Source of the DNA: Candidatus Poribacteria bacterium
GTDB lineage: Bacteria; Poribacteria; WGA-4E; WGA-3G
Assembly: GCA_028820635.1 (NCBI GenBank)
Contig: JAPPIG010000082.1
Location: forward strand, 104,645-168,644
DNA length: 64,000 nucleotides
Direction of reading: 5' to 3'
Shown: positions 14,481-53,455 of the stretch, one piece after another
Numbering within the stretch: position 1 is the first letter of the stretch
How the letters are laid out: every line of letters begins with the position of its first letter
Program-made: the position numbers and the translations under genes
Notes under the pieces: model-generated
What the model saw: the letters and a program-made list of their open reading frames with translations, nothing else
Database searches by the model: none
Told to the model about the DNA's origin: nothing

Positions 14481-14583
14481 TGTTGAAGGGGTTTGTAACC
14501 CCGATTTTCACGCTGTGTATCTGATATCCAAATCAACGATGAATGCGCTTTTGGCATTCATCGGGGTTGGAAACCCCTCCAAC
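14481..14583. repeat. family B inverted repeat interrupted by a 35-nt hairpin unit
   Basis: The outer arms gttgaaggggtttgtaaccc and ggggttggaaacccctccaa-c match the hairpin at 2080-2152. Between them sits a caaatcaacg-plus-hairpin unit. The 14321-14634 gap contains no gene. Confidence 0.75.
14529..14563. repeat. 35-nt AATCAACG hairpin unit, copy 1
   Basis: caaatcaacg followed by stem cgatgaatgc / gcattcatcg (10 bp) with a 7-nt loop. The left boundary is ambiguous because the host repeat also carries aaatc. Confidence 0.65.
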
Positions 14584-14634
14584 AATAGCGAAACTCGACA
14601 ATTGAATGGTTCTGATGTATACATATTATATAAA

Positions 14635-14663
14635 TTGACAATTTTTGTCGGAAATAGTAAAAT
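14635..14663 (+). promoter_or_regulatory. sigma70-type promoter of the amidohydrolase gene
   Basis: Consensus TTGACA, 17 bp, TAAAAT at 14658-14663, 30 bp before the ATG at 14694. It excludes the upstream start at 14664. Confidence 0.65.
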
Positions 14664-14693
14664 ATGCCAATCCTTAGCAATTGGAGGGGAACA

Positions 14694-15548
14694 ATGGAAA
14701 AATTCCCGATTGTAGATACACATGTTCATCTATGGCACCCGAAGCAGCTAAGATACCCTTGGCTAAAGCAAGTTCCAACATTAAACAAACCGTATCTCTT
14801 AAATGATTATTCCGCTGCGCACGAGAATCTGGAAATAGAATCTATTGTTTTTGTCCAATGTGATACGCATCCAGATGATGGATTAAAAGAAACTGCTTGG
14901 GTTACTTCTCTTGCAGCTGTAGAACCACGTATTCAGGGTATTGTGGCATGGGCACCGCTTGAAGAAGGCAAACAGGTAGAGCCTTTCATTGAAAAATTGG
15001 CAGAGGATACACTGGTAAAAGGCATTCGTCGCCTTATTCAAGGGGAAAGTGTTGATTTCTGTATCCAATCCAACTTTGTGAATGGTGTAAAAACGCTTGC
15101 GCGCTACGGATTGAGTTTTGATCTCTGTATCTTCCATCCGCAACTCGCTCATGCTATTCGACTTGTAGAACAGTGTCCTAATGTCCAATTTATCTTGGAT
15201 CACATCGGTAAACCAGACATTAAAAACCAACTGTTTGAACCTTGGAAGCAGGAGATAAAAACACTATCAGAATTCCCGAACGTCTACTGTAAGATATCTG
15301 GGTTGGTAACTGAGGCAGACCAGGAGAACTGGACTGCATCTAATCTAAAACCTTATATTGAGCATGTTATTGAGTGTTTCGGATTCGACCGTGTTATTTA
15401 TGGTAGCGATTGGCCAGTTTCAACGTTAGCATCGGATTATCCACGTTGGGTACAAACTTTGCAGGACGCTGTATCAGGATGTACACCCGAAGAATTAAAA
15501 AAACTTTTTCACGACAACGCAATCAAATTTTACAAACTTCACTCGTGA
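14694..15548 (+). CDS. amidohydrolase family 2 metal-dependent hydrolase (fuconolactonase/PDC-hydrolase-like)
   Basis: TIM-barrel hydrolase of the COG3618 group, which opens lactones such as L-fuconolactone or hydrolyses 2-pyrone-4,6-dicarboxylate. Conserved blocks seen are IVDTHVHLWHP near residues 6-16, the DHIGKPDI metal or substrate site near residue 168, and YGSDWPVS near residue 236. The 284-aa length is typical. The ATG at 14694 follows GGAGGGG, and the promoter at 14635 makes the upstream start at 14664 unlikely. Lactone hydrolysis would fit with the sugar-acid dehydratase and dehydrogenases nearby. The substrate is inferred. Confidence 0.87.
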   Translation: MEKFPIVDTHVHLWHPKQLRYPWLKQVPTLNKPYLLNDYSAAHENLEIESIVFVQCDTHPDDGLKETAWVTSLAAVEPRIQGIVAWAPLEEGKQVEPFIEKLAEDTLVKGIRRLIQGESVDFCIQSNFVNGVKTLARYGLSFDLCIFHPQLAHAIRLVEQCPNVQFILDHIGKPDIKNQLFEPWKQEIKTLSEFPNVYCKISGLVTEADQENWTASNLKPYIEHVIECFGFDRVIYGSDWPVSTLASDYPRWVQTLQDAVSGCTPEELKKLFHDNAIKFYKLHS

Positions 15549-15583
15549 GATAGGAATGTCTCCTCATACCACTCTCTGGTATA

Positions 15584-17767
15584 TCAATCTCTTGCCTTAA
15601 CCTCGCGCCTGCGTGGATGAAGCACAAATTCTGTATATCCGTTCGGCAATTCACATCCCTTAAATACCAAATCTAAAGATGCTTGAAAAGCAATGCTCTG
15701 ATCGTAATTGGGTGACATATTCCGATAATTCGGGTCACCCGCGTTCTGTTCGTCAACTACCTTTGCCATCCGTTCAAACGTCTCCGTAACTTGTGCTTTG
15801 GTAACAATCCCATGATGCAACCAATTCGCAATATGTTGACTCGAAATACGTAGTGTTGCCCGATCTTCCATCAAACCGACGTTGTTAATATCTGGTATTT
15901 TGGAACAGCCGATCCCTTGGTCTACCCATCGCACGACATATCCGAGAATACCTTGTGCATTGTTGTCCATTTCACGCTGGATTTCATCTGAAGACAATTC
16001 ACGTTCTTTTAGCAAGGGCGGCGTTAATAGGTCTTTTAAACTTGCACGCTCACGCAAAGCCAACTCATTTAACCAATTGGAAACATTCACCTTATGATAG
16101 TGTATTGCGTGCAGAGTTGCAGCAGTGGGTGAGGGCACCCACGCGGTTGTTGCTCCTGCCATGGGGTGATTCACTTTTGTCTCAAGCATCTCAGCCATCT
16201 CATCAGGTTTTGTCCACATCCCTTTTCCAATTTGCGTAATCCCCGGCAAACCCGTCTCAATCCCAATATCAACGTTCCAATCCTCGTAGGCACGCATCCA
16301 CGGTTCCTTGCGGATATCCATCTTTGGAATCATAGCACCTGCTTCCATGCTGGTATGGATTTCATCACCTGTTCTGTCCAAGAATCCTGTGTTTATGAAC
16401 ACGAGACGTTGTGATGCTATTCGGAGCACCTCCTTGAGATTGACGGTGGTGCGGCGTTCTTCATCCATAATTCCTATTTTGATTGTATTCGCGGCGAGAC
16501 CAAGTGCATCTTCTATCTTTCCAAACAACCGAACGGTCATATCAACCTCTTCCGGTCCGTGGAATTTCGGTTTGACGATATAGACACCACCTGTTTTGCT
16601 ATTGGTAAATTTGCTGTTGCTCTGCAGGTCATGCATAGCAGCGAATGTCGTTATCATCGCATCAAGGAAACCTTCAGGTATTTCTTCTCCGTCTGCAGTA
16701 ATAACAGCATCTGTATACATGTGGAGTCCAACGTTCCGAATCAGGAGTAAACTTCTGCCCGACAATGTGAAGGTGTTCCCATCTGGTGCAGTGTGCGTTT
16801 TGTCTGGCGCTAATCTTCGGGTCATCATCTTGCCATTTTTCTCAAACGTTGTTTCTAACGTGCCTTTCATGATACCGTTCCAATTGCTGTAGACGCGCAC
16901 CTTATCCTCAGCATCAACCGCAGCGACCGAATCTTCGCAATCTTGAATAGTCGTTATTGCCGACTCAAGGATTACATCTGCAACATCGGCAGGATGTGCT
17001 TTGCCAACTGGGTTTTCTGGGTCAATCTGTATTTCTATGTGCAACCCGTGGTTTTGAAACAGTATAGAACTGAGGTCATCGCCAGCTTGTGTAAAACCGA
17101 CAAATTTACTTGGGTCTTCTAAACCAACTTCATTTCCACCACGAAGGATAGCACGCAGCTGCAACTTTCCATCAATAGTCTTAAGCAAAAATTGCGTAAC
17201 CTCTGAAAAACTTCCCGATTCAAGGCTTATGACTTCATCTAAAAACTGCTCGGTGTATGCAATAACTTTCGCACCACGAATTGGATTATAAGTATCACCA
17301 CGAGTAGCACCATCGGTTTCATCAATCACATCGGTACCGTAGAGAGCATCATACAGACTGCCCCATCGCGCATTTGTAGCGTTTAGAGCATAGCGCGCAT
17401 TATCCACTGGGACAACCAACTGCGGACCAGCAATTAGGGCAATCTCCAGATCAACGTCTTCCGTTGTAACGATAAAATCATCACCTTCAGACACCAGATA
17501 ACCGATGTCGGTAAGGAATGCAGTATACGCTTCATGGTCTATCGGTTCATTTTTGCGTTCAAGGTGCCACGCGTCAATCTGTTGCTGCAGCGTATCCCGT
17601 TTTTCCAAAAGCAACCGATTTTCTGGGGCGAATTCCTCAACAATTTTATCGAATGCATCCCAGAATGAGTCTGCATCTATCCCTGTGCCAGGCGCAATTT
17701 CATCTCTGACCAATACATATAAATTTTGATCTATTTTAAGATTGCCGATTCCAATCCGGTTTTCCAT
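15584..17767 (-). CDS. glcB: malate synthase G
   Basis: Condenses glyoxylate with acetyl-CoA to give malate. The 727-aa length matches isoform G. Recognisable blocks are [51 protein letters not shown] (metal-binding acidic residues), [18 protein letters not shown] and [18 protein letters not shown] (catalytic Asp region). GGAG lies 8 bases before the ATG. No isocitrate lyase is in the window, so the glyoxylate could come from glycolate or sugar-acid breakdown. It is divergent from the small Cys-rich membrane protein gene at 18037. The call is secure. Confidence 0.96.
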
Positions 17768-17968
17768 GTTGTTTTCTCCATCCCGGGACGTGGTTTCAGG
17801 TTACCTTTGCCGTATCGCATACGTTTAGCCGATGTATCGTTACATAAGTCCATAGTTTGTTTCAAGTCTCAATTATCTTACCAACAGTTTCTTCATGTGT
17901 CAAACATTTTCTGATTCTGAATTAAAATTTGAGCGTTCTTCACTAACACGCGTAATTGCCAAATTTCG

Positions 17969-17997
17969 TTGACATTATGACACTAATCGGCTATAGT
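17969..17997 (+). promoter_or_regulatory. sigma70-type promoter of the small protein/kdgK operon
   Basis: Consensus TTGACA, 17 bp, TATAGT at 17992-17997. It lies downstream of the alternative start at 17956, supporting translation from 18037. Confidence 0.65.
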
Positions 17998-18036
17998 AAC
18001 AAAAGCATTTGTTGCCATGTTGAAAAGGAAATTGCA

Positions 18037-18303
18037 ATGTTTTTCGTCTTTTGTATATTTATTTTACCGATTACAGTTTTACTAATTTTGCTCCTTTCTA
18101 CCCGGCAGAAAACAGACAGTGAATCACCATCAACAGCCCCCATGGAAGTTTGTGCACTCTGCCAAAAAGAATTTCCAATGAACCAATTGGTGGAAAAAGA
18201 GATAGGCACTTACGGTAGAGTTTACTGTTTCTGTGGGGAATGTATCGAAACACTATACAACGAATTTAAAGGTAAAACAGATATAAAACAGGAGAATAAA
18301 TAA
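18037..18303 (+). CDS. small single-span membrane protein with a CxxC pair
   Basis: An 88-aa protein not matched to a named family. Residues 1-22 are one hydrophobic span (MFFVFCIFILPITVLLILLL). The rest is cytoplasmic or exposed and holds VCALCQKEF and YCFCGECIE, together resembling a small zinc-ribbon. AAGGA lies 7 bases before the ATG at 18037. The frame is open from 17956, but the promoter lies within that stretch. The stop codon overlaps the start of the next gene by one base (TAATG), so the two are translationally coupled. A regulatory or metal-binding role linked to the sugar kinase is only a guess. Confidence 0.65.
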   Translation: MFFVFCIFILPITVLLILLLSTRQKTDSESPSTAPMEVCALCQKEFPMNQLVEKEIGTYGRVYCFCGECIETLYNEFKGKTDIKQENK

Positions 18304-19346
18304 TGTATGATTTAGTTACGTTTGGTGAAGCGATGATCCGTCTTACTGCACCAGAGTTTATGCGCTTAGAGCAGGTATCATCCTTGGCAATCACAGCAGG
18401 TGGCGCGGAGATGAACGTCGCTGTGAATGCTGCACAACTCGGCTTAAAAACAGCCTGGGTCTCACGCCTTGTGGATAATTGGTCAGGTCGCTATATCCGC
18501 AACAAAGGGCAGGAACTCGGTGTTGACATGTCCAATATTGTATGGGTGGAATTTGACGGTGTGGGCTTTGAACGGAACGGGTTTTATCATCTTGAAATGG
18601 GGGCAGGTCCCCGAGCGAGCAGTGTTACTTATGACCGTGGACATTCGGCTATCTCTAAGGTTCAAACCGGTGAAATTGATTGGGCATCCATTTTTAGTAA
18701 GGCGCGATGGTTTCATCTGAGCGGTATTACACCTGCTTTGTCGGAATCTGCAGCTGCTGTTTCTGCAGAAGCACTCAAAGCAGCGCGTGCAGCTGGTGTT
18801 ACAACAAGTTATGACCTTAACTTTCGTTCTAAATTGTGGAGTGCAGAGCAAGCGCAAGCGGTAAACCGACCGATGATGGAACATGTTTCTGTTCTTATCG
18901 GAAACGAAGAGGATTTTGAGAAATCCTTGGGGTTCGCTGCAGAAGGCACAACTGAATCGTATAGCAAACTTGAACCTGAGAGTTATAAAGAGGTCGCACA
19001 GCGCGTCAAAGAGGCTTTCCCAAACATTGAAATGATTGGCACAACGTTGCGTGACGCTAAAACCGGCTGGTTAAACGATTGGCGGACACTCCTGTTTGAT
19101 GGCGAAGAATTTTATCTGTCACGCATCTATGAAGATTTAGAATTGGTGGACCGAGTCGGTGGTGGTGATAGTTTCTCATCTGGATTAATCTTTAGTCTAT
19201 TGAATGGAAAATCATCTCAGGATGCAGTTGATTTTGCGGGTGGATATTCCGCCTTAGCACATACCTTCCCAGGCGACTTTAACTGGGCAACGGCAGCGGA
19301 AGCTGAAAAAGCGATGCAGGCGGGGGGCGTGCGTATCAGTCGTTAA
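18303..19346 (+). CDS. kdgK: PfkB-family sugar kinase, 2-dehydro-3-deoxygluconokinase-like
   Basis: Phosphorylates a sugar or sugar acid, most likely 2-keto-3-deoxygluconate, giving KDPG for aldol cleavage. The N-terminal ribokinase motif AGGAEMNVAVNAAQLG lies near residues 32-47. The C-terminal signature VDRVGGGDSFSSG with catalytic Asp lies near residues 282-294. The 347-aa length fits KdgK. AGGAG precedes the start, which overlaps the upstream stop codon. An enolase-type dehydratase at 9628 could supply the substrate, although it is about 8 kb away. The family is secure and the substrate probable. Confidence 0.87.
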   Translation: MYDLVTFGEAMIRLTAPEFMRLEQVSSLAITAGGAEMNVAVNAAQLGLKTAWVSRLVDNWSGRYIRNKGQELGVDMSNIVWVEFDGVGFERNGFYHLEMGAGPRASSVTYDRGHSAISKVQTGEIDWASIFSKARWFHLSGITPALSESAAAVSAEALKAARAAGVTTSYDLNFRSKLWSAEQAQAVNRPMMEHVSVLIGNEEDFEKSLGFAAEGTTESYSKLEPESYKEVAQRVKEAFPNIEMIGTTLRDAKTGWLNDWRTLLFDGEEFYLSRIYEDLELVDRVGGGDSFSSGLIFSLLNGKSSQDAVDFAGGYSALAHTFPGDFNWATAAEAEKAMQAGGVRISR

Positions 19347-19397
19347 GCAGATAAAACTATTGGATAGTCCATCCTAAACTTATATGTATCATCAATA

Positions 19398-19458
19398 GTC
19401 GGGAATCGGAGTTCCCTCCTACAATGTTCTCGGTAGGAGCGATCTCCGAATCGCGACC
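19398..19458. repeat. paired REP-like repeat (family A)
   Basis: gtcgggaatcggagttccct-cctac, a short spacer, then gtaggagcgatctccgaatc-gcgacc. It has the same arrangement and the same flanking 'caatagtcggg' as 2260-2328. Confidence 0.8.
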
Positions 19459-19484
19459 TATAATTTTAGAGTAGATAGACCACT

Positions 19485-20492
19485 ATGCAAAAAATTTTAC
19501 TCTCTCCCATTTTTGAAAATACTGAGTTTGATACCGCGGAACGCCGAGCGGCGTTAGCAGATTTGCAGCAACTGGGTGAGTTAAGCATTCATCCCCGAGA
19601 ACTGACTGCGGAATACGCTGATGGTGTTGTTGGCGTGATTGCAAGCGGAGTGCCCTTTCATGAAAATTTCTATCAAGCGGCGGAATCCCTCCGAATTATT
19701 GCGCGTTGGGGTGTCGGATTCGAAACCGTTAATGTAGACTTGGCGACCAAATACGGGGTCATTGTTACGATTGCTCCTGAACACATGGTGACCGTTGCCG
19801 AATATGCGATTGCACAGTGGTTCGCGACCATGAAGCGAGTCTATACGCTAAATAGAACCTCCCACAGCGGAGATTTTGGACTCATCAAAACCCATGAGGT
19901 GATGAGTTCCACGCTCGGTTTATACGGATTTGGTCGGATTGGGCAAGAAGTTGCACGGCGTGCGCGTCCACTTCTCGGTGAGCACGGACGACTCTTGGTT
20001 TACGATGTTCGTCCGGACATCGCTGAAGTCGCAGCACAATTCGGTGCGGAGGTTGTTGGCACACCGTTGGAACTCTTTGAAGAGAGTGATACTGTCTCGC
20101 TACACCTATCGGGAGCGGAGACCGTTGTAGGCTATGAGGAACTCTGCGCTATGAAACCGCATGCGTCTCTCATCAACCCATCGCGCGGAAACCTTGTTGA
20201 TGACGCTGCAGCCAATCGAGCAGTCAGTGAAAACCGCCTTTGGTATTATGTCGTAGATGATCCAGTGAACGGACCGCGGGCGATCCACAAAGACCACCCG
20301 CGCATCATCTGTACGAATCACAACGCCGGCATGACTGTTGAATCTGGTATTCGGTTGGATCTTCGGACGATTGAACAGGTTACAGACGCAATTCAAGGAC
20401 GTGCACCGGCTTATGTTCTGAATCCAGAAGTGCTGGAGCATCCCAGAGTTAAAGCATTTTGCAAGGATACTTCACAGCCACTTAAACTGTGA
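19485..20492 (+). CDS. D-isomer-specific 2-hydroxyacid dehydrogenase family protein
   Basis: NAD-dependent dehydrogenase of the phosphoglycerate dehydrogenase superfamily (335 aa). The Rossmann motif LGLYGFGRIGQEVARRA begins near residue 144 and ends with the NAD-selective Asp in LLVYDVRPD. The catalytic Arg is in INPSRGNLVDDAA and the catalytic His in TNHNAGMT. The usual Glu of the DVFxxEP block is replaced by Asp in YVVDDPVNGP, a conservative change that may alter activity. No strong Shine-Dalgarno is visible. It lies downstream of a REP pair and ends 1 base before the convergent methyltransferase. The substrate is unknown. Confidence 0.85.
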   Translation: MQKILLSPIFENTEFDTAERRAALADLQQLGELSIHPRELTAEYADGVVGVIASGVPFHENFYQAAESLRIIARWGVGFETVNVDLATKYGVIVTIAPEHMVTVAEYAIAQWFATMKRVYTLNRTSHSGDFGLIKTHEVMSSTLGLYGFGRIGQEVARRARPLLGEHGRLLVYDVRPDIAEVAAQFGAEVVGTPLELFEESDTVSLHLSGAETVVGYEELCAMKPHASLINPSRGNLVDDAAANRAVSENRLWYYVVDDPVNGPRAIHKDHPRIICTNHNAGMTVESGIRLDLRTIEQVTDAIQGRAPAYVLNPEVLEHPRVKAFCKDTSQPLKL

Positions 20493-20493
20493 C

Positions 20494-21615
20494 CTAATCT
20501 TTTTCAAGCAAGAAAAGGAATTCTCGATTCGGTTTTTCGGCAGCGTTCACCCATTCGTTTGTCCATTTCATACCTGCCATGACGTTCCGTTTGTAATTCA
20601 TTTCAACAACAGCGAGGAGTTTGCCGTTTTTTTCCATGACTTCGTTTAGTTCTTCGGCAGTAGCACGCCCACCAGAACTGTAGGACAAAATAATCCAACG
20701 CGCTTGTGTCCCACGAATCAGTTCTGCTATTGCTTCAACAGCAATAAAACGACCGTTTGTGTCACGTCGGAACTCCTCAAATACGGATGCAGAAAGTTGA
20801 TCGGAAGTGTCCTTCCGCCGTTTTGCCTTACCGAAAAGCGTCGGTTTGTCAAAGAGAATAACACTTTTCCAGAGATGGTAGTATGCTGCATATCTCACAC
20901 GAGATGGCGGCATTTTTTCATTGTTTGAACCATAGGGTGGATCGAAGTATGCAAGGTCTGCTGAGACGTTTGAGACAAGTTCAAAAATGTCGGTTTGGTA
21001 GACTTCGTGGTTTCCTGCTGATGTAAAGACTTTTGGCACTTCAAGCACGAGTTCTTTATAGGAGCGCGGTGACCAATCTTTGAGATAGGCGGAACAATGA
21101 CCTAAGGTACTATCAACCTTATCAAGAGCAAGAATTAAACTTGTTAAGGCTACCGCTTTATCAACAGTATCAAGGTTGAGATTTTCAATTTCCTGCCGAA
21201 TCGCATCTAATTTACGGGTATTATGTAACTGCCACGGTTTTTTGAGTCCATCTGTTTGGATTGCGCACCCGTCGTTGACATTTCCGCCATAATGTTCTGT
21301 GAACCATCCATCAATCGGTGGAACAGCGTTTAGGTGGTCAATAAGGGGTTGGTATTCAGCTTGCGGTTTTGTGTTGAGAAGGTAGCAAGTCCCAAAAACT
21401 TCTGACCACGGGGCAATATCGTTGCATATCACGGAGTAGCCGAGTTTGGCAAATGCTTGTGAGACGCGGGTTGTGCCTGCAAAACCGTCTAAGATTGTTT
21501 TGGCGTCAACTTTTTGGGTGAGTTGGAGTATTTGTGGGATGAGTTTTAGTTTGGAGCCAGCGTACTTTATGCCTTCTGTGGTGGGGAGATGAAAACCTGG
21601 AAGGTATTGTTGCAT
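20494..21615 (-). CDS. D12-class adenine-specific DNA methyltransferase
   Basis: Probable N6-adenine DNA methyltransferase. It has the N-terminal SAM-binding region KYAGSKLKLIPQIL with LDGFAGTTRVSQAFAKLGY, and the catalytic motif AYFDPPYGSNNE. About 373 aa from the chosen start. The frame is open to 21741, overlapping the upstream nuclease gene. The ATG at 21615 lies 4 bases after that gene's stop, while the ATG at 21663 is a possible overlapping start. Neither has a good Shine-Dalgarno. The adjacent upstream gene is a NucS/RecB-like nuclease on the same strand, which suggests a restriction-modification pair. The target site is unknown. Confidence 0.82.
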   Translation of the reverse strand: MQQYLPGFHLPTTEGIKYAGSKLKLIPQILQLTQKVDAKTILDGFAGTTRVSQAFAKLGYSVICNDIAPWSEVFGTCYLLNTKPQAEYQPLIDHLNAVPPIDGWFTEHYGGNVNDGCAIQTDGLKKPWQLHNTRKLDAIRQEIENLNLDTVDKAVALTSLILALDKVDSTLGHCSAYLKDWSPRSYKELVLEVPKVFTSAGNHEVYQTDIFELVSNVSADLAYFDPPYGSNNEKMPPSRVRYAAYYHLWKSVILFDKPTLFGKAKRRKDTSDQLSASVFEEFRRDTNGRFIAVEAIAELIRGTQARWIILSYSSGGRATAEELNEVMEKNGKLLAVVEMNYKRNVMAGMKWTNEWVNAAEKPNREFLFLLEKD

Positions 21616-21619
21616 GGAT

Positions 21620-22609
21620 TTATGTTGGGTTTTCTGCCACGGATTCTGCTTGGTTAACGTCATCGTTTTCTTTAATTTTATCCTTTTCTGGATCATATAG
21701 ACGATATTTTCCCCTTGATACCCACCAGTATCTATCTTCACCTATGGGATATTTTCGTCGTTTAGAAAAGTTAACACAAGAACCTCTTATCAGGCGTCTT
21801 ACTCTACTTAAAAGGAAATCAGGATGCTTATTCTCAACGGTTCGTTCAATGTCTATGGGAGAGAATGTGACATTCAGATCACCATCTGTAAATTCCTGAA
21901 CTGCTTTCCATACAATCTGTTCTACTGGTTCATCGCTCGGAGGTCGCGGAGAAGAGGAAGACTTTCTCCGGGATTTATTAGGTCCAGCAAACTGCTCATC
22001 TCCAACAATTGTTTCTGTACTAACGACAATTTCACCTAACTCTGTCTGGAATATGGAGACAACTATGCAGGTGACATCTATACCGTGTGAAGCTCGGAGG
22101 AAACGGCAGACACGTGTGACTCGCTCTGGTATCTCTTCTGCGACTATGAATAGACGCAATGTGCGATTGAGCGGAGGGAATTCGTCTGTCTCAGGCATAT
22201 CAAATACTGCCCTAAAGACTTCATCAAAAGTTTTGCCTTCAAACTCACCCCGAGTTCGAAAGTAATTTTCAGCTATCTCACGAATCTCTGATTCCGAAAG
22301 TTGCTCTGCCCACGCAGCATAGTCAAGCAGTTGTGCCACTACCTCACGTGGAGTCCGCCCTTTTTTTAGTTCAACGATGACGAGGTTCCCTTGAAAGTCA
22401 ACTCCAAGTAGGTCAGAATACATGGTGTTTTCTTCATCTGTAACACTCGTTTGCCGACCAATCCAAAGAAAATCCTCTTGAGCAAGAGTCTGTCGCGGAC
22501 TATTCTCAAGCCAATCTTCCAGATGGCTTTCAAGTTCCAAATTGGTTTCTTGTGCAATGACGAGTTCAGCGTTAGAGATATCGTCACCTTCTAATCTAAA
22601 AATAGGCAT
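21620..22609 (-). CDS. PD-(D/E)XK nuclease-like protein (NucS/DUF91 type)
   Basis: A 329-aa protein with a nuclease core resembling endonuclease NucS/DUF91. The motif DLLGVDFQGNLVIVELKKG (residues about 68-86) supplies the D...ExK catalytic set, followed by VVAQLLDYAAW with the usual Gln and Tyr. The C-terminal part (after about 220) is Ser- and charge-rich, then has a separate conserved-looking segment (ENKHPDFLLSRVRRLIRGSCVN) ending in RYWWVSRGKYRLYDP. The second half resembles a DNA-binding or sensor domain but is not recognised. It is directly upstream of a DNA methyltransferase. Either restriction or DNA repair is possible. Confidence 0.7.
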   Translation of the reverse strand: MPIFRLEGDDISNAELVIAQETNLELESHLEDWLENSPRQTLAQEDFLWIGRQTSVTDEENTMYSDLLGVDFQGNLVIVELKKGRTPREVVAQLLDYAAWAEQLSESEIREIAENYFRTRGEFEGKTFDEVFRAVFDMPETDEFPPLNRTLRLFIVAEEIPERVTRVCRFLRASHGIDVTCIVVSIFQTELGEIVVSTETIVGDEQFAGPNKSRRKSSSSPRPPSDEPVEQIVWKAVQEFTDGDLNVTFSPIDIERTVENKHPDFLLSRVRRLIRGSCVNFSKRRKYPIGEDRYWWVSRGKYRLYDPEKDKIKENDDVNQAESVAENPT

Positions 22610-22613
22610 TGTT

Positions 22614-22946: not shown

Positions 22947-22949
22947 GGG

Positions 22950-23249: not shown

Positions 23250-23327
23250 CCTATATTTCTATTACCGTAAACGGGAAATCCGACGATAAATCTCTGCCAT
23301 CTCAGTCTTATTAAATTGCCTGCAGGT

Positions 23328-24191: not shown

Positions 24192-24244
24192 ATAAATTTC
24201 CTATTGTTTAATGTCTGAACAAGGTTATTTAGTTTTAACCAAAA

Positions 24245-24304
24245 GTCGCGACCAGCGAATCAACGCCAAATACGCGTGTGGTATTTGGCGGGTCGCTCCT
24301 ACAG
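24245..24304. repeat. family A palindrome interrupted by a 35-nt hairpin unit
   Basis: gtcgcgaccag ... ggtcgctcctac are the right-hand parts of the palindrome at 11022-11065, where they are separated only by 'ga'. Here a 35-nt unit sits between them. Confidence 0.8.
24256..24290. repeat. 35-nt AATCAACG hairpin unit, copy 2
   Basis: cgaatcaacg followed by stem cgccaaatac / gtatttggcg (10 bp) with a 7-nt loop. It has the same geometry as copy 1 although the stem sequence differs, i.e. compensatory change. Confidence 0.8.
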
Positions 24305-25600: not shown

Positions 25601-25672
25601 TGCACCAGCGAGGTTAGGAAGAAATCAACGGTATAAACGCCTGTAGGCGTTCCCCGCCTCGCCTACTGGGTG
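25601..25672. repeat. family E repeat interrupted by a 35-nt hairpin unit
   Basis: tgcaccagcgaggttaggaa and gcctcgcctactgggtg flank the unit and are partly inverted (cgagg / cctcg). Confidence 0.6.
25621..25655. repeat. 35-nt AATCAACG hairpin unit, copy 3
   Basis: gaaatcaacg + gtataaacgcc tgta ggcgttcccc. It is nearly identical to the inner unit of copy 4. Confidence 0.75.
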
Positions 25673-26214: not shown

Positions 26215-26309
26215 GTCGGGAATCCAAATCAAGAAATCAACGGTATGAACGCCTGTAGGCGTTCCCCGGGTATGGATGCCTTTTGGCATTCCCCGGAGTT
26301 TCCTCCTAC
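26215..26309. repeat. family A repeat interrupted by two hairpin units (70 nt)
   Basis: gtcgggaatc and ggagtttcctcctac are the two parts of a family A unit that is continuous elsewhere (for example 2260-2284). The interruption is exactly 70 nt, two units of 35. Confidence 0.85.
26225..26294. repeat. AATCAACG hairpin units, copy 4 (nested or double)
   Basis: caaatcaa, then gaaatcaacggtatgaacgcc-tgta-ggcgttcccc (35 nt, 26233-26267), then gggtatggatgccttttggcattcccc. Removing the inner 35 nt leaves a second 35-nt unit, which suggests insertion of one unit into another. Confidence 0.75.
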
Positions 26310-39370: not shown

Positions 39371-39442
39371 TGTAGGTCGTGATTCGGAGATCGCTCCTAC
39401 TCACAGGTGTCTTCTTGTAGGAGGGAACTCCGATTCCCGACT
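39371..39442. repeat. paired REP-like repeat (family A, reversed order)
   Basis: gtaggtcgtgattcggagat-cgctcctac followed by gtaggagggaactccgattc-ccgactac. The units are in the order opposite to 2260-2328. The 39208-39503 gap otherwise holds no gene. Confidence 0.75.
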
Positions 39443-44314: not shown

Positions 44315-44473
44315 GAAATTCTCTTTTTTTAGCAATAGGTTCTGAATACTCACATGCAGTGTTGACAATGATAACATATATTGAGAAAAAAATCCATGAA
44401 AATGAACTGATTCCTCCTACAAATACAGACTGATTCTACTATAAACAAGATTGCATTGCTTTTTATGAACAAA

Positions 44474-46399: not shown

Positions 46400-46452
46400 G
46401 ATTACGGTCTTAATTTTATAACAGTTTTCACAATTAGGCAAACTATTTTGAA

Positions 46453-46482
46453 TTGTCTACTGCACAGGAGATGTGCTATAAT
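46453..46482 (+). promoter_or_regulatory. sigma70-type promoter
   Basis: TTGTCT, 18 bp, consensus TATAAT at 46477-46482. Transcription would start near 46489, so the downstream start at 46524 is favoured. Confidence 0.55.
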
Positions 46483-46523
46483 CAATGATAATAAACTTGA
46501 AGTATGAGCGGGTTTTGAACCTT

Positions 46524-48170
46524 ATGAGAATTTTCAGAAAAAAACTCATCTTCATAATTCTGATTGTCCTGATAGGTATAATTGTTTTGTCCACCGTTAT
46601 ATACCAGCAAACTGCACTTTGGAAACCTGAACAGAGTCTTATCACGCTACTCCCTGAATCCCCAATTTGTTATTTGACACTCAAGGAATTAGAAGGACTT
46701 GTTAATGCGTTTAAACGAAGTGAATTGGGAAAACAAGCGGCACAAATGCCGATCCTCAATCATATCAAAAGGCAAATGTGGTGGAGACAACTCGTATATC
46801 AGAAGTTAGTGTGGGAATACGAAATGGGTGGCAAACTTGATATGCGGGCAGTCAAGGGACATTTCGGCACAGAAGCCATTCTTGCGGTTTACCAACGTGA
46901 AGGTGAACTTTCGTTCTTACTTATCACAGAAGTGGGTGGACCAGAAAAACTTGCTATTGAAGCTCTCACTGCTACGGATGCAATTAACCCTAATTACAAA
47001 AGAATCCAGACTGAATACAATGGACTAACTATCAACACCATTATTGGATATCCGCTTGATTTTAGTTATACTTTCATCGGTAAGATAGGCGTTTTAAGTT
47101 TGAATCCGTTGCTTTTGGCAGAAGTTATTGACATTTATGCTGAAAAAAATGAAGGCTTCCTTGCCCGACACCCCATAAAAGGGAATATACAAAAGAGTTA
47201 CAATAACGATGCAAATACGGGATACTTAGACATTTCCCATCTGTCTGCTGTGTTGAAAAGTCTTGGGGACAATTTCGGTTCACTTGCTGAACAGATTTCT
47301 ACGTTGTTTGGCAAAGGTGAATTCTGGACATTTGGCAATCGGTATGAAGACGGTGTAATTATTTCCAAATATCGTTTTGGAAACTCTGAAAAACCCGTCC
47401 CATCTCAATTAGCAACACAACGCAAACCGTCATTTCTTCCTGAACAAACAGCATTAGTTACATTTAATCCACATCACAATTGGGATAAAACGTGGAAAAT
47501 GTTAAAAGATAACTTGGCGATTCAAGTTGACTCAGATACACACGGTTTTTCTCAACATTTGGACCCAGAAATTACAGTAGCAATGGTCACGCACAGCGAA
47601 GGAGAAGTATCTAAATTTCCTTCGTTAGTCCTGCGCGCGCCAATTCAAAACAAGGTCGTATTTACTGAAGATATTGAAAATTTAAAAAACATGAAAATTA
47701 CCATTGCAGGAACACCGCTTGAATTCCTTGAAACACAAGAATATAAAGGCATCACGGTGCAACCCGTCCAACTACGCCTCAATTTTCTATTGGCCTTTAT
47801 AGGTGGATACGCCATTGTTGATAACCATTTTTTCTTTAGCACAACGCTTCCAGGATTAAAATCTGTGCTTGATACGAATTCAGGGGACGCGCCAAAATTA
47901 AGTGATGTAACATTTTCTGACAACGGTACACAGACGTACATTCAGCCAAATCTGTTGGTGCCAGAAATAAGACGTTTCATCCCGATTGCGACACTACTTG
48001 CTTCTCTTTCGGGACAAAAATTGGATGCCGTTTTAATGCAGCATATCAAGAACAATCTGTTTCCGTTGGAGTCTCTCGGTCCGATTACTGCTAATGTCAA
48101 CTTCGGTGAGGGTGGAGTGGATGCAGAAGTGCAGATTGTTTTAGAAAAGAATGCTTTACATGAAAAATAA
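46524..48170 (+). CDS. membrane-anchored DUF3352-like protein
   Basis: A 548-aa protein with one N-terminal membrane span (residues about 7-29, KLIFIILIVLIGIIVLSTVIY) and a large exported domain. The domain contains EQSLITLLPESPICYLTLKEL and a following AFKRSELGKQ segment, a pattern seen in DUF3352-like proteins of uncertain role. The remainder shows alternating helices and strands without a known catalytic motif. The start at 46524 follows the promoter; the earlier ATG at 46485 lies upstream of the likely transcription start. It is followed after 11 bases by two small coiled-coil genes and a PIN toxin, probably in one transcript. Confidence 0.7.
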   Translation: MRIFRKKLIFIILIVLIGIIVLSTVIYQQTALWKPEQSLITLLPESPICYLTLKELEGLVNAFKRSELGKQAAQMPILNHIKRQMWWRQLVYQKLVWEYEMGGKLDMRAVKGHFGTEAILAVYQREGELSFLLITEVGGPEKLAIEALTATDAINPNYKRIQTEYNGLTINTIIGYPLDFSYTFIGKIGVLSLNPLLLAEVIDIYAEKNEGFLARHPIKGNIQKSYNNDANTGYLDISHLSAVLKSLGDNFGSLAEQISTLFGKGEFWTFGNRYEDGVIISKYRFGNSEKPVPSQLATQRKPSFLPEQTALVTFNPHHNWDKTWKMLKDNLAIQVDSDTHGFSQHLDPEITVAMVTHSEGEVSKFPSLVLRAPIQNKVVFTEDIENLKNMKITIAGTPLEFLETQEYKGITVQPVQLRLNFLLAFIGGYAIVDNHFFFSTTLPGLKSVLDTNSGDAPKLSDVTFSDNGTQTYIQPNLLVPEIRRFIPIATLLASLSGQKLDAVLMQHIKNNLFPLESLGPITANVNFGEGGVDAEVQIVLEKNALHEK

Positions 48171-48181
48171 GGGAGGATTTT

Positions 48182-48559
48182 ATGATGGAAAATGTTACGC
48201 TTGAAAGTGTTGTTGAACGCTTAGATAGATTAGAAAAAATAATTGTGGAGTTAAATCTGCAGCTTTCTTTATTGGTCAAGGAATTAATGTCACACCCCGC
48301 TGAGAATTCCAAAGCCAATGCGGAAGAGGTAAAGAGCAACATTTACAGTGACAAACGTGACGCTCACATTGCCAAGAAAATTTTTGCTGAAATATACGAA
48401 AAAATGGGTATTTCACCAGATTTTGAACTTAGACCGCTTGAAGAACTCCGTGAAAGCATGCGACAACATGGCATTCGTGCTGAGGATAACGAATTTAGCC
48501 GCGCTATTATTGAAGAACGGGAAAATAAAGGGATTTACGATGAAAAAAGAAACACGTAG
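48182..48559 (+). CDS. small coiled-coil protein, antitoxin-like paralogue A
   Basis: A 125-aa charged protein. Residues 8-40 (VVERLDRLEKIIVELNLQLSLL) form a coiled coil. The C-terminus has GIRAEDNEFSRAIIEERENKG. Both segments recur in the next gene, so the two are tandem paralogues. GGGAGG lies 5 bases before the ATG. The end overlaps the start of paralogue B by 20 bp. A PIN-domain toxin gene follows paralogue B. An antitoxin role is inferred from position and size. No DNA-binding motif is recognised. Confidence 0.7.
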   Translation: MMENVTLESVVERLDRLEKIIVELNLQLSLLVKELMSHPAENSKANAEEVKSNIYSDKRDAHIAKKIFAEIYEKMGISPDFELRPLEELRESMRQHGIRAEDNEFSRAIIEERENKGIYDEKRNT

Positions 48560-48866
48560 TCAAGTCGTAGAACGCTTAGATCGACTTGAAAAGAGAATCG
48601 CTGAGTTGAATCAACAACTTTCTTTGCTCGTAGATGCTGTAGTAACGAGCAAGCAGAAAAACTTTAAAACAGGGGAAGAGGTGATGGCGTTTTATGGACG
48701 TGACAAAAAACAAAATGCTGATATTGTCCAAGAAATGTTTAAAAAAATAGGTATTTCCGGCAAACCAATTCCAGCCGAAGAGCTGCAAGCACGCATGGCA
48801 AAAAGCGGTATTCGTGCCGAAGATAATGAGTTTAGTCGCGCTATTATTGAGGAACGCGAGAAATAA
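48540..48866 (+). CDS. small coiled-coil protein, antitoxin-like paralogue B
   Basis: A 108-aa paralogue of the preceding protein. It shares VVERLDRLEKRIAELNQQLSLL near the N-terminus and GIRAEDNEFSRAIIEEREK at the C-terminus; the middle (residues 35-75) differs. The start codon is placed by AAGGGA 6 bases upstream. It ends 2 bases before the PIN-domain gene, the usual arrangement of antitoxin and toxin. Having two adjacent antitoxin-like copies for one toxin is unusual. Confidence 0.72.
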   Translation: MKKETRSQVVERLDRLEKRIAELNQQLSLLVDAVVTSKQKNFKTGEEVMAFYGRDKKQNADIVQEMFKKIGISGKPIPAEELQARMAKSGIRAEDNEFSRAIIEEREK

Positions 48867-48868
48867 GT

Positions 48869-49372
48869 ATGTACTACTTCTATTTTGATGCTAGCGCATT
48901 GGTCAAACGGTATACCGATGAAGTTGGAAGTGATGAAATTGATTTCATTTTTGCCAACGTTCCATTAGTGCACATGCAGTGCTTAATACTCGGAGCTGTG
49001 GAAGTTCTTTGGATATGTGTACGTAAAAGAAATGATGGTCGCATCACACAGAATCACTTTACTCAGGCAACTCGCTACTTAGAGCAGGAAGTAATGGATA
49101 CCAATTCAGACTTTAAGACTATTTCCATTCCAGATACGCTTGTTTTGAACTCAATGTCTATAATTGAAACCCACTCGCTCAATTCAGTTGATGCAATTGT
49201 CTTGCGCTCTGCGTTGGACATCGCAACAGAGCTTCGCAATACGGGCAATACGTTAATACTGGTTGCATCTGATCAACGTCTGCTCAGAGCGGCACAGGAG
49301 GAAGGATTGGTTGTTTTTAATCCAGAAGTTGATCCACAACAGACTCTTACAGATTGGATAATGCATATATGA
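48869..49372 (+). CDS. PIN-domain protein, probable VapC-like toxin
   Basis: A 167-aa PIN-domain ribonuclease-like protein. The four acidic positions can be placed: FDASALVKRY (Asp), GAVEVLW (Glu), SVDAIVLRSA (Asp) and VASDQRLLRAA (Asp), so the active site looks complete. It follows two antitoxin-like genes with a 2-base gap, and its stop overlaps the start of the next oxidoreductase gene (ATGA). VapC-type toxins cut tRNA or rRNA; the target here is unknown. It is longer than most VapC (about 130-140 aa) by a helical insert in the middle. Confidence 0.85.
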   Translation: MYYFYFDASALVKRYTDEVGSDEIDFIFANVPLVHMQCLILGAVEVLWICVRKRNDGRITQNHFTQATRYLEQEVMDTNSDFKTISIPDTLVLNSMSIIETHSLNSVDAIVLRSALDIATELRNTGNTLILVASDQRLLRAAQEEGLVVFNPEVDPQQTLTDWIMHI

Positions 49373-50421
49373 ATACAAAGATTGGTATCGGTATAATAAG
49401 TTTCGCACATGGACACGCGAACGCATACTGCAACAAGATGCAGACGTTTGATGATGTCAAACTCGTCGCGTGTTGGGACGATAACGTTGAACGCGGTGAA
49501 AACGCCGCAACACAATACGGGATGACCTTTTCACCGCACCTTGAAGATGTGGTGAATCATCCTGAAATTGATGCTGTGATTGTAACGTGTGAAACAAATC
49601 GGCACGCGGAGATGGTGGTGGCTGCGGCATCAGAAGGCAAACACATCCTTTGTCAAAAACCGATGGCGCTCACCTTAGCAGATTGTGATAAAATTGCCGA
49701 TGCAGTACAAAAATCGGGCGTTAAGTTTATGATGGCACACCAGATGCGGCGTGATCCTGCTAATATCGCGATGAAAGAACTCATTGAGAGTGGAGTTTTG
49801 GGTAAGATAGGGTTGCTGCGACGGCGGCACTGCATCAACGTTCTCTTTAATGAGGCGTTTGTAACAGGACCAAGTCGTTGGCACATTGATCCGGTGAAGA
49901 ATATGGGTATGTTTATGGACGATGCATCTCATGCGACTGATTTTATCTATTGGATGCTCGGTAAACCAACAAGTGTCATTGCCGAAATAGACAATGTCTT
50001 GACGGATGTCGCGCCTGATGACACAGGGGTTGCAGTCTATCGATTTTCGGATGGCGCTATGGCTATTCTTATTAACACTTCTGTAACACTCGCTGGTGAA
50101 AATACGACTGAAATTTATGGTCATGAAGGGGTTGTCATTCAGAACTATGGTGATGGACCTTCGTGTAACATGCCTCGCCCTGAAGATGCAATAGCACTAA
50201 AACTATATACACGAGAAGAACCGTCGTGGAAAGACCTTGGTATCGCAATTCCCAACAGCCATGGAGAACGGATTGCAGGCGTCCCCCGTCCGTTTATTGA
50301 TTGTTTGAAGAGTGATTCTGAACCGGATGTGTCTGTTGAAGCAGGAAGGGTTTCTGTGGAGATGGTTTTGGGTGCATATCGTTCAGCACAAGACGGAAGA
50401 CGAGTTAAGTTTCCATTATAA
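49369..50421 (+). CDS. Gfo/Idh/MocA family oxidoreductase
   Basis: A 350-aa NAD(P)-dependent oxidoreductase of the Gfo/Idh/MocA family. The Rossmann start is IGIGIISFAHGHANAYC, with a less typical Gly pattern. The usual EKP motif appears as CQKPMAL, with Gln for Glu. MFMDDASHATDFIYWMLG is the family substrate block with D...H. The start at 49369 overlaps the PIN toxin stop by 4 bases (ATGA), an odd pairing of a metabolic gene with a toxin gene. An ATG at 49354 is less likely. The substrate is unknown. Confidence 0.86.
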   Translation: MNTKIGIGIISFAHGHANAYCNKMQTFDDVKLVACWDDNVERGENAATQYGMTFSPHLEDVVNHPEIDAVIVTCETNRHAEMVVAAASEGKHILCQKPMALTLADCDKIADAVQKSGVKFMMAHQMRRDPANIAMKELIESGVLGKIGLLRRRHCINVLFNEAFVTGPSRWHIDPVKNMGMFMDDASHATDFIYWMLGKPTSVIAEIDNVLTDVAPDDTGVAVYRFSDGAMAILINTSVTLAGENTTEIYGHEGVVIQNYGDGPSCNMPRPEDAIALKLYTREEPSWKDLGIAIPNSHGERIAGVPRPFIDCLKSDSEPDVSVEAGRVSVEMVLGAYRSAQDGRRVKFPL

Positions 50422-50462
50422 AGGAAAGCGTCATTATCTAATATCACTTACAAAACACGGGT

Positions 50463-51197
50463 TCACGGACTATTTCTTCGCATAATACTCAATATCTGTC
50501 CTGTCATACCGCTGTCAGTGGGTTGCGTTGCAAGGAAAAGCGCGGATGGAACAACCTGCTCTGGCTCCTTCCATGGATCACTCTGTCCTCTAAACGTATC
50601 AGTACTCTCCCAAGCAGGTTTTGAAAGTTGTGTTTTTACCGGACCGGGTATCAAGACATTGGCAATAATTCCATCTTGCCATACCTCTTCCGCAATTGCT
50701 TGTGTTAACCCATGCAAAGCTGCTTTAGATGCACTATAAATGCTAAGGTTCGCGTGACCAACCATGCCTAACCCTGAGCCAATGTTGACGATATTTCCGC
50801 TTTTCTGCTGCTGCATAATAGGTAATACTGCACGGCAACAGTGGACAACGCCCAGGACGTTGATCTTCCATACCTCATCCCACTCTTCATCGGTTGTGTC
50901 TAAAAACAAACCTCTTGGATTGATACCAGCGTTATTGACAAGGATGTCTATTCTTTCGTACTGATCCATCGTCTTTTCAACAAGATTTTCCACATCAGGA
51001 CGGTCCCGTAAATCAGTTGGCACTGCAAGAACATTTCCACCACTTGCTGAAATCACATCTGCTACCTCATTCAGTTGGTCCTCGCTTCGTGCTGCAATCA
51101 CAACGGATGCCCCTTCAGCAGCGTAAGCAATGGCAATTGCTCTACCGATTCCCCGTCCAGCACCAGTGACAATAGCGACTTTGTTAGTGAGTTGCAT
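50463..51197 (-). CDS. short-chain dehydrogenase/reductase (SDR)
   Basis: A classical SDR of 244 aa. TGAGRGIGRAIA (cofactor site) lies at residues 11-22, NNAG at about 89, and the active-site Ser/Tyr/Lys are in NIGSGLGMV and IYSASKAAL. It probably reduces a ketone or oxidises an alcohol of a sugar or acyl substrate. AAGGAA lies 6 bases before the ATG. It is convergent with the preceding Gfo/Idh gene. Nothing in the sequence fixes the substrate. Confidence 0.88.
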   Translation of the reverse strand: MQLTNKVAIVTGAGRGIGRAIAIAYAAEGASVVIAARSEDQLNEVADVISASGGNVLAVPTDLRDRPDVENLVEKTMDQYERIDILVNNAGINPRGLFLDTTDEEWDEVWKINVLGVVHCCRAVLPIMQQQKSGNIVNIGSGLGMVGHANLSIYSASKAALHGLTQAIAEEVWQDGIIANVLIPGPVKTQLSKPAWESTDTFRGQSDPWKEPEQVVPSALFLATQPTDSGMTGQILSIMRRNSP

Positions 51198-51253
51198 GGA
51201 TGATTCCTTCCCAATTTACGTAAAATCAATTATTTGATTGGTTTATGAAATAG

Positions 51254-52078
51254 TTAAGTGTTTTTTGAACGACTCCACATATTAATCAGACGCGTCAGTT
51301 GTGAGCGACTTGACTGAACTTTACGTTTCAAATCACCTGCAAGAGTCGTTAGTAGGTCTTGGCCATTTTTCTCGGCAGTTTCTACTTGTTCTTTCAAACG
51401 ATAGGTGCGTCCTGCTTTAACCCGATTTATCTCTGACCGCAATTCTGCTGTTGCGCGGTTAAGGCTTCGTAATTCTGACTGCAACTTTTCCCTTTTCACT
51501 ACTGTCGTATCTTCAGAATCAAGTGAAAAGTCTGTTTCTCCTATACTTAGCCGTTCTAAAATTTGAATATCTTGCTCATTATATGCTCGGTTGATGAGCG
51601 GCATTAACTCTTCCCGTCTGTTCCGCTCTTCAGACTCTTCTGATTTATCTGGATGAAACCGCTTGGCAAGTTTACGGTAGAGATTTTGTAGGTACTTCGC
51701 CTCCTTGTCTGGAAGTTCATTTTTGGGTGATTTTTGCTCATCCTCTTTCTGCGTTTCAGAAGCATCAATTCGCGCACGGTTTTCCCTAAAACAGGATTCA
51801 ACCCGTGCTTCAATTTCTTCTTCACTTATATCTTCTCGGCGTAGTTGCAAGCGAAGACGATACTCCTTTGTTTCAAGTTCAACCTTATCAAGTTCAAGAT
51901 AAACATGCCCAACATGAGCATTATACCTATGCTGAAACAAGTCAACCTCAGCTTTCAGGTGTTCCTTTGCCACAGTGAGTTCTTCAACTTGTTCCCGTTT
52001 TTCATCAATAGCCTGAAGCAGTCGATTAATCTCCCTCTGTTCATTGTTATTGATATGGACTAAAGTTGTCGGTTTCAT
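51254..52078 (-). CDS. J-domain protein with flanking coiled coils
   Basis: A 274-aa highly charged protein. Residues about 10-55 and 200-255 are predicted coiled coils. Residues about 128-172 form a J domain with the HPD motif ([34 protein letters not shown]). J domains stimulate Hsp70 ATPase. Its ATG overlaps the IF-1 stop codon by 4 bases (ATGA), so it is co-translated with IF-1. A link between chaperone recruitment and translation is a plausible inference. Not a canonical DnaJ: no Gly/Phe or zinc domain is seen. Confidence 0.78.
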
Positions 52079-52440
52079 GGCTTACGATATGTGATACGAC
52101 CTCGTGTCAAATCATAAGGTGAGAGCTCAACAGTTACCTTATCCCCAGGTAATATTTTGATAAAGTATTTTCTCATTCTGCCAGAAATATGTGCAAGAAT
52201 CTCATGTTTGTTATCTAATTCCACACGAAACATTGCATTTGGTAAAGGTTCAACAACGACACCTTCTACTTCGATTTTATCTTTTTGAGAAGGTTTGCGT
52301 TCAGTAACGTCATTATCTAAATCGACATCTACAGCTGAATCATCTTGTTGTTTTTTCGGTTGTTGTTTCCGCTTTGAACCTCTTTGTTTTGCAGATCGCC
52401 CCTGCGGCCTCTTCCTATTTCCTGATCGTTTTCGATTCAA
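52075..52440 (-). CDS. infA: translation initiation factor IF-1 with N-terminal basic extension
   Basis: The last 70 residues are a full IF-1 S1-like domain ([54 protein letters not shown]). IF-1 binds the A site of the 30S subunit during initiation. An extra N-terminal segment of about 50 residues is rich in Lys, Arg and Gln ([20 protein letters not shown]), then acidic. The start is a TTG at 52440 with AGGAG 9 bases upstream; no ATG, GTG or TTG occurs in frame between the extension and the domain, so the extension is likely real. It is coupled to the J-domain gene. No ribosomal protein genes are adjacent. Confidence 0.88.
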
Positions 52441-52515
52441 AATATAGTACTCCTTTCTGTTTAAAATAATAGAATTTATAAATCAATTTGTAGGAAATAA
52501 TTATGTTCCTACACA

Positions 52516-53310
52516 TTAAGATTGATCTTCATAACTGAAAGTTTTTCCTGCTTCAAGAACAAGTTCTTGAAAAAAATCTATTGCGAGTTGGAGCTGACTT
52601 TCAGACTCCTCTTTATCGCTACTTGTTGAAACAAAATCTACAGGCATCATATTGCCGCCAACGTCACGTAGTGCAACATAAGCCTTTAGATAAACTTCTG
52701 GGTGGCGTTCCATCACCTTTTGCATCAGTGGTGAAACTTCCGCCTCAAACATACTTACAAAAACCCGTGCAGTGCTAATCTCGGCACGGTACCGTTCAAC
52801 GATAAGTGGCTGGATATGTGTCTCAAAAACCGCCTTCATCTCGCGCGGTGGACCGGGCATCATCATGAGAGTGGATTCCTTGTGAGAAACACTGATACAC
52901 GGTGCCCATCCCGCTGGATTCTGAAGCACTTCCGCTGTTTCTGGCACAGTCGCCATTTTGGTTAGTGCCTCACTCAGCGGATCGTTTTCTGACATCTCGC
53001 GGCGCTTGCGGTATTCTGCGATGGTATCTTCGCTCACAACAGGTTTTGTGCCAATCAGCGATGCTACAACAGCCACCGTCATATCGTCCGGTGTCGGACC
53101 GAGTCCGCCTGTCATTAGGATCAGTGCTGTTTCACGTTCAATTGCAGCACCCAACGCTTCAGTCATCTCATCAAAATCATCGCGGAGCATAGTAACCCTG
53201 CGTAACTCCCCACCGAGTTGGAGTATCTGTTGTGCAATCCAGTGGGCATTCGTATCCTGAATTTGCCCAAGGACTAACTCGGTTCCGATTGAAAACAGTT
53301 CTATCGCCAC
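52516..53310 (-). CDS. CinA-type molybdopterin-binding domain protein (COG1058)
   Basis: A 264-aa protein with the MoaB/MogA-like fold of CinA N-terminal domains. FSIGTELVLGQIQDTNAHWIAQ lies near residues 6-27, and the nucleotide-site motif TGGLGPTPDDMT near residues 67-78. MMMPGPPREMKAVF is a further conserved block. The C-terminal NMN-deamidase domain of full CinA is missing; such short forms act as ADP-ribose or NAD-related pyrophosphatases. AGGAG lies before the ATG. It stands between IF-1 and an interrupted repeat. Function inferred from family. Confidence 0.85.
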   Translation of the reverse strand: MAIELFSIGTELVLGQIQDTNAHWIAQQILQLGGELRRVTMLRDDFDEMTEALGAAIERETALILMTGGLGPTPDDMTVAVVASLIGTKPVVSEDTIAEYRKRREMSENDPLSEALTKMATVPETAEVLQNPAGWAPCISVSHKESTLMMMPGPPREMKAVFETHIQPLIVERYRAEISTARVFVSMFEAEVSPLMQKVMERHPEVYLKAYVALRDVGGNMMPVDFVSTSSDKEESESQLQLAIDFFQELVLEAGKTFSYEDQS

Positions 53311-53386
53311 CTAATTCTCCTAACTATAACGACTTGTGCCAGTTAACAATATGTTTTGTTGGTTTTCACATATATTTGCCTTAGTG

Positions 53387-53455
53387 CTATAAACATATCG
53401 TCCCTACCAAATCAACGCTATGAATACCTTTATGGCATTCAGCGGGACTAAAAAG
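53387..53455. repeat. family D repeat interrupted by a 35-nt hairpin unit
   Basis: ctataaacatatcgtcccta-c and cgggactaaaa flank the insertion. The uninterrupted copy ctataaacatatcgtcccta-cgggactgaa lies at 53472-53502. In it, gtccc-ta-cgggac is a short palindrome, and the unit is inserted next to its centre. Confidence 0.85.
53408..53442. repeat. 35-nt AATCAACG hairpin unit, copy 5
   Basis: caaatcaacg + ctatgaatacc tttat ggcattcag. The stem is imperfect. Confidence 0.8.

Follow-up and report, generated by a model that had tools for sequence, protein, structure and literature searches.

We asked whether a hairpin-bearing sequence of about 35 nucleotides (nt), met at five places in one stretch of a Candidatus Poribacteria genome, is a mobile element in its own right. 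The stretch, hereafter the window, is 64,000 nt long and was examined first; it belongs to an assembly of 5.97 Mb in 136 contigs, of which 1.2 Mb, taken as stretches that include the window, was examined in detail. A sequence-only reading of the window had described five loci at which the motif [CG][AG]AATCAACG is followed by a hairpin of variable but paired stem, each inside another repeat, and had proposed a miniature element that targets hairpin tips. We found that the unit has entered its hosts as one discrete block, just 5' of a G (with a caret marking the junction, C^G in most cases and C^GGG in many); these hosts are chiefly GTAG-type repetitive extragenic palindromic (REP) sequences, other repeats and the unit itself. 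As a mostly discrete, nested mini-insert it is real and well supported, and we regard it, with a probability of roughly 60%, as a non-coding mobile mini-element, mostly 33–36 nt long, that moves as folded DNA.

The comparison of filled with empty hosts carries this finding. For the junction analysis we required a hairpin of at most −6 kcal/mol after AATCAACG, with the C of AAC paired to a downstream G, and by this definition 83 of 212 AATCAACG sites in the 1.2 Mb counted as hairpin-bearing units (sites close to the ends of stretches were excluded from counts). For 53 of the 83 the 1.2 Mb also contains the host without interruption, and at 28 of these the junction was clean. Five filled copies share the clean junction GTAGGTC^GGGTAGA, four share GGGAATC^GGAGTTC, which has 31–39 empty copies, and three share TTGC^GCCTCT; further clean junctions are CTAC^GGGACT and GAAC^GCCTGT, the latter in the loop of the unit itself. 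The base to the left of the 28 clean junctions was C in 23 cases, G in 4 and T in 1. In the CA-prefixed form (26 distinct contexts) it was C in 24 and T in 2, with GGG on the right side in 15. Filled and empty copies showed no target duplication beyond one base. The hosts include GTAG-tagged REPs, other repeats and the unit itself, the last giving nested and tandem arrays, and the proposal of a discrete miniature element inserted into pre-existing repeats is thus borne out by filled and empty copies.

Within the window, AATCAACG occurs five times on the + strand and not at all on the − strand, and the motif is present at all five loci where it had been reported. The units and their hosts are as follows.

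14529..14562, + strand: unit 1, 34 nt, hairpin closed by G 14563; length taken from the empty site.
14480..14585, no strand: host of unit 1, palindromic repeat TTGTTGAAGGGGTTTGTAACCCC ... GGGGTTGGAAACCCCTCCAACAA (family B).
24256..24289, + strand: unit 2, 34 nt, hairpin closed by G 24290; the orthologous locus of relative G004 is empty.
24245..24302, no strand: host of unit 2, GTAG-type REP GTCGCGACCAG ... GGTCGCTCCTAC; host bases GA replaced.
25621..25655, + strand: unit 3, 35 nt, hairpin closed by G 25656.
25608..25663, no strand: host of unit 3, GCGAGGTTAGGAA ... CCTCGCC; empty form GCGAGGTTAGGAAACCTCGCC, one A replaced.
26225..26294, + strand: unit 4, split by unit 5 into a left part (26225–26232) and a right part (26268–26294).
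26233..26267, + strand: unit 5, 35 nt, nested in unit 4; its host is another unit.
26215..26309, no strand: host of unit 4, REP GTCGGGAATC^GGAGTTTCCTCCTAC.
53408..53443, + strand: unit 6, 36 nt; length taken from the empty site.
53400..53448, no strand: host of unit 6, palindrome GTCCCTAC^GGGAC.
53486..53498, + strand: uninterrupted copy of the unit 6 host, in the same window.

The single-unit length of 35 nt given by the sequence-only reading thus holds for 25621–25655 and 26233–26267, while units 1 and 2 measure 34 nt and unit 6 measures 36 nt; the locus at 26225–26294 does carry the motif but is one unit split by a second rather than a simple locus. The claim that existing hosts were interrupted stood at each of the five loci, for all of which the 1.2 Mb contains an uninterrupted copy (at most 2 mismatches per 12-nt flank). 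The host of unit 1 has one empty form elsewhere, TATCTGATATC^GGGGTTGG, and that of unit 2 has an empty form with GAGG 32 times (at most 1 mismatch per 10-nt flank). Related uninterrupted copies of the unit 4 host lie at 2263, 12195 and 19401 (+) and at 39426 (−), and its type, GGGAATCGGAGTT, has four uninterrupted copies within the window. For unit 5 the uninterrupted CAAATCAACGGTATGAATGCC occurs elsewhere in the genome, and the junction is altered (a host C is missing and there is one extra G). The nested composite at 26225 recurs at six further places in the genome with 94–98% identity over 96–102 nt; the inserted unit was therefore copied along with its host, and filled hosts still multiply.

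Genome-wide, the motif has 373 copies compared to 33 for the reversed pattern used as control. The unit consists of a conserved head, NNAATCAAC, preceded by bases that vary between units, and a hairpin of ~10 bp. With a limit of −5 kcal/mol plus the [CG][AG] prefix we obtained 67 canonical units, of which 56 measure 33–36 nt without the closing G and the others 32, 37, 39 or 41 nt; 60 of the 67 lie outside open reading frames of at least 100 amino acids. Hybrid units with several hairpins are common. In 54 distinct units, selected by the left arm alone, 74.4% of stem cells were paired as against 65.6% in shuffles, and 56 cells were changed on both sides compared to 18.2 in shuffles and 5–20 in slid structures, so the stems do vary while staying paired, as had been noticed in the window. 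A chance origin of the motif excess and of the pairing was ruled out by these reversed-pattern, shuffle and slide controls. Across the inner eight stem pairs of 91 distinct units in which 7 or more of 10 pairs were Watson–Crick, G.T and A.C mismatches were about equally common (21 and 24; p 0.77), giving no sign of one strand folding as RNA. Paired stems may have been kept by selection for DNA folding or by copying from arm to arm; both would fit.

We then considered how far the unit is confined to repeats. The fractions for this question come from two contigs, C34 (entire) and C118 (464 of 535 kb), C118 being the contig of the window and C34 having been finished after five of its stretches were chosen for motif hits; both were thus picked partly with knowledge of the motif, and neither choice was wholly blind. 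The remaining 18 stretches, with 39 of the 67 canonical units, had been selected by motif density or by Y1 transposase genes. On the two contigs a looser test gave an empty host for 21 of 28 canonical units and, among 300 random intergenic positions, for 32; both sets include some weak matches. Both flanks were repeated at 20 of the 28 units and at 122 of the 300 control positions, and either flank at 246 of the controls; since intergenic DNA here is rich in repeats, lying inside a repeat is an enrichment and not an absolute rule. The statement that the unit occurs only inside other repeats therefore holds for the five window loci and weakens to an enrichment across the genome, and copies lying mostly outside other repeats, looked for on C34 and C118, were not what we saw. 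One unit even lies in a coding gene:

461..494 of L249 (contig C28 of relative G004), − strand: unit of 34 nt inside a DDE_Tnp_1_3 transposase gene.

Each of the two gene pieces that border the unit has its own match to PF13612, and the reading frame runs on across the junction without a stop.

The proposed targeting of hairpin tips, in contrast, failed as a rule and was rejected. When 37 distinct host junctions were folded as DNA, stems held 20 of them and apical loops 8, where sliding the junction would give 11.9 and 15.5; a further 6 lay outside and 3 elsewhere, against 5.3 and 4.3 expected. Flank complementarity came up to the 95% level of random positions in 11 of 79 units. A tip is sometimes used, e.g. 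AATGCGC^TTTTGGCA.

Next, we looked at relatives. In the named genome collection, an exact 33-nt unit turned up in 11 stretches, every one from Candidatus Poribacteria. A covariance model of the unit (R1; E ≤ 0.001), whose counts per genome are lower bounds because 81 candidates were scored in each, matched 47 of 84 genomes of the phylum: 18 of 18 in the genus (at least 5–85 matches each), 29 of 38 in the sister genus (at least 1–33), neither of the 2 from a third genus within the family, and none of 26 in other families. The bare motif exceeds its reversed control even where the model has no match (190 versus 32 in G036, with 0 model matches); it is unspecific, and motif counts in relatives were therefore not used for the distribution. 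A search of viral contigs with one pattern led nowhere. The host pattern GTAGGAGCGAYCTC has 144 copies in G026, 329 in G023 and 42 in G025, three genomes without a unit match; as the host is abundant without the unit, the unit probably arose after the host REP. The opposite order, with the composite as the ancestral form, was thus not borne out at the level of the family, while the one informative orthologous locus is unpolarised. The locus is that at 24256: G004 has the empty form (GACC-TGGA-GGTC), the window a unit and G006 another, different unit, the right flank being common. At 25621, G003 and G004 carry the composite in opposite orientation and with other loops. Most other orthologous comparisons showed a spacer in the other species that had neither host nor unit. 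The spacers near 14.4, 24.2, 25.6, 26.2 and 53.4 kb range from ~20 to more than 300 nt between species of the genus, and orthologous spacers often hold unrelated palindromes at the same place, indicating fast turnover of intergenic repeats.

As a mover, the sequence-only reading had suggested a REP-associated tyrosine transposase (RAYT) or a related Y1 enzyme. Two genes of the genome match NF047646 (REP_Tyr_transpos), and arrays of GTAG-type palindromes flank both of them as well as several RAYT-like genes of relatives; some of the palindromes in these arrays are host types of the unit. Of 39 genomes searched, 34 contain Y1_Tnp (PF01797). Four RAYT-like genes (L071, L072, L158, L159) have a unit or near-unit no more than ~500 nt away. 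At the Y1 and RAYT loci examined, however, units do not regularly border RAYT genes as the GTAG-type REPs do; the flanks were fully seen at all but ~3 of 23 Y1 places. By the positions of AATCAAC, 20 Y1 loci (L034–L053) gave no evident sign of the unit hairpin as part of an insertion sequence (IS) with TnpA, and Y1 loci as the source of the unit led nowhere. RAYT genes are thus present as supposed, and their role as movers of the unit is doubtful. Among the Y1 loci of relatives (L148–L167), several RAYT-like genes stand amid palindrome arrays with stems of their own, e.g. GTAGGTGCGGTT and GGGGATCGGAATCCCC, and these Poribacteria loci are a rich set for studying the specificity of RAYTs for REPs.

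Several observations weigh against a mobile element inserted as a discrete block. Of the 83 units, 30 had no empty copy and 25 had altered junctions, with host bases that differ or are replaced. The first G to the right of the junction is imposed by the definition of the unit. Many contexts that share a prefix resemble one another (G on the left in 9 of 9 TG contexts, A in 7 of 8 TA contexts), so there were fewer independent events than there are copies. Nor is the number of units tied to the number of hosts; G006 combines 437 copies of GTAGGAGCGAYCTC with 11 unit matches. In 94 colinear spacers, 25 of them with the motif, there was one clear filled/empty alignment, at 24256, and its polarity is not fixed because G006 is also filled. 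Finally, the enzyme that would move the unit was not identified. On the mechanism that we favor, an enzyme encoded outside the unit would act on it in trans and move it as folded DNA; an enzyme that processes DNA hairpins seems a better guess than a route through RNA. Among named enzymes the RAYT/Y1 group leads as candidate, although we would bet against it. A bolder and tentative proposal is that a head and hairpin of ~35 nt might be the complete substrate of an integration enzyme that acts on C^GG(G) without target duplication, which would make the unit the smallest precisely inserting mobile DNA element and a parasite of RAYT-dependent REPs.

How do other explanations compare with movement as folded DNA? 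A RAYT or another Y1 (HUH) transposase could move the unit as a single-stranded hairpin and place it at hairpin tips. GTAG REPs like those arrayed around RAYT genes make up many of the hosts, the genome has its two NF047646 matches, head-plus-hairpin anatomy and the absent target duplication fit, and HUH classes with atypical REP tags have been described (PMC6006769). Tips are not preferred, however, nor is there a fixed 4-nt left target, and G023, G025 and G026 have RAYT matches but no unit. Orientation in the single-contig genome G009 shows no bias (19 of 34 on the plus strand, permutation p 0.90, for the 34 of 54 listed matches that have E ≤ 0.001), although the GC skew there, sampled over 0–3.8 Mb, is too weak to define replichores. 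Moreover, G002 (94% complete) and G010 (73%) have 0 Y1_Tnp and 0 RAYT matches, yet at least 38 and 8 unit matches; in G002 units are nested in units and inside REPs. G002 may have lost its Y1 gene lately, or the gene may lie in the missing part, but it still speaks against a simple RAYT model, and we consider this explanation doubtful. Somewhat less likely again is that the unit has no mobility of its own and that composites form when folded repeats undergo template switching or gene conversion as the DNA replicates, the host REPs then spreading them. The 25 altered junctions, stems that vary as pairs without strand asymmetry, the common several-hairpin hybrids and an amplified composite would all fit this, whereas blocks that share one conserved head across many different hosts, the 28 clean junctions and the clean insertion in the coding gene of G004 would not.

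Movement through an RNA intermediate, reportedly proposed for the small dispersed repeats (SDRs) of cyanobacteria, appears improbable: a small, structured, polar unit with a conserved head and no target duplication would suit it, but G.T wobbles are not in excess over A.C, and Rfam at gathering scores gave no match within the window. We give least credence to the composite being the old form from which precise deletion of the hairpin made the empty one. Hairpins can be lost through replication slippage, and G004 at 24256 could be such a loss; such deletion is hard to reconcile with 31–39 empty as against 4 filled copies of the GGGAATC^GGAG host and with the abundant host REP in three genomes from families without a unit match.

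The sequence-only reading knew of no described element like this one, which is too strong, as SDRs and REPs inserted into palindromes are precedents. SDRs, reportedly described by Elhai et al. 2008 as tiny and nested repeats of 21–27 nt, would resemble the unit in being tiny, dispersed, compensated in their stem changes and found inside other repeats and their own copies. The unit differs in length (mostly 33–36 nt, and so outside the range reported for SDRs) and in its phylum, sequence and hosts, many of which are RAYT-type REPs with a junction that is mostly C^G. Di Nocera et al. 2013 (PMC3733652) describe GTAG- and CGTC-tagged REPs as hairpins of 20–40 bp with an unpaired tag, report REPs inserted into palindromes (GTAG-15 of A. 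variabilis, GTAG-23 of T. roseum, CGTC-1 of H. neapolitanus) and give target palindromes without a REP only for T. roseum. The unit is likewise a high-copy, mostly intergenic hairpin of 20–40 nt, but it bears neither tag (the head NNAATCAAC being part of the definition of the family searched), nests in itself, does not regularly flank RAYT genes and, unlike the REPs in that paper, commonly has empty hosts. The REPs of the atypical TnpA-REP classes 2.6 and 3 (Quentin et al. 2018, PMC6006769) are also multi-copy hairpins without a GTAG tag, but they flank their Y1 gene, which we did not see for the unit at the loci examined. IS elements for which REPs are insertion hot spots (Tobes and Pareja 2006, PMC1525189) differ in being insertion sequences with their own transposase. 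IS200/IS605 elements differ too, in that the unit has no fixed left target of 4–5 nt and only one left base is nearly fixed. The unit thus shares the behaviour of SDRs and palindrome-inserted REPs and has neither the SDR length nor the GTAG/CGTC tags. Searches of an open-licence library yielded no paper on this element, on such Poribacteria repeats or on the smallest mobile repeats.

Bacterial repeats shorter than 100 nt are common, and their movement is seldom visible. The Poribacteria unit would be among the smallest pieces of DNA that behave like a mobile element and would form a further layer of mobile DNA that lives on REPs, in a phylum distant from the cyanobacteria. As empty and filled hosts stand in one genome, the order of nesting can be read and species differ at a shared locus, the way in which a 35-nt sequence can move may be tested directly here.

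Three further repeats were seen in passing. In L020, at ~1250–1390 (−), 34-nt units stand in a tandem array, CAAATCAACGCCACACGCCTTTTTGGCATCTGTC repeated; entry of new units at the C^GGG end of older ones would produce such an array. The palindromes CAAATCATGCAGAATGCGC...GGCATTCTGCATGATTTG form a sister family that has the same inner hairpin as the unit and itself hosts the unit (L011 ~5641, L020 ~592 and, beside a unit, L014 ~11785); it may be a relative or an ancestor. In G007 (L151, 9508–9813, −), six tandem repeats spaced by 61 nt carry AATCAACRCC directly before a GGCGGTTACAAACCGCC palindrome, possibly a fused head and REP.

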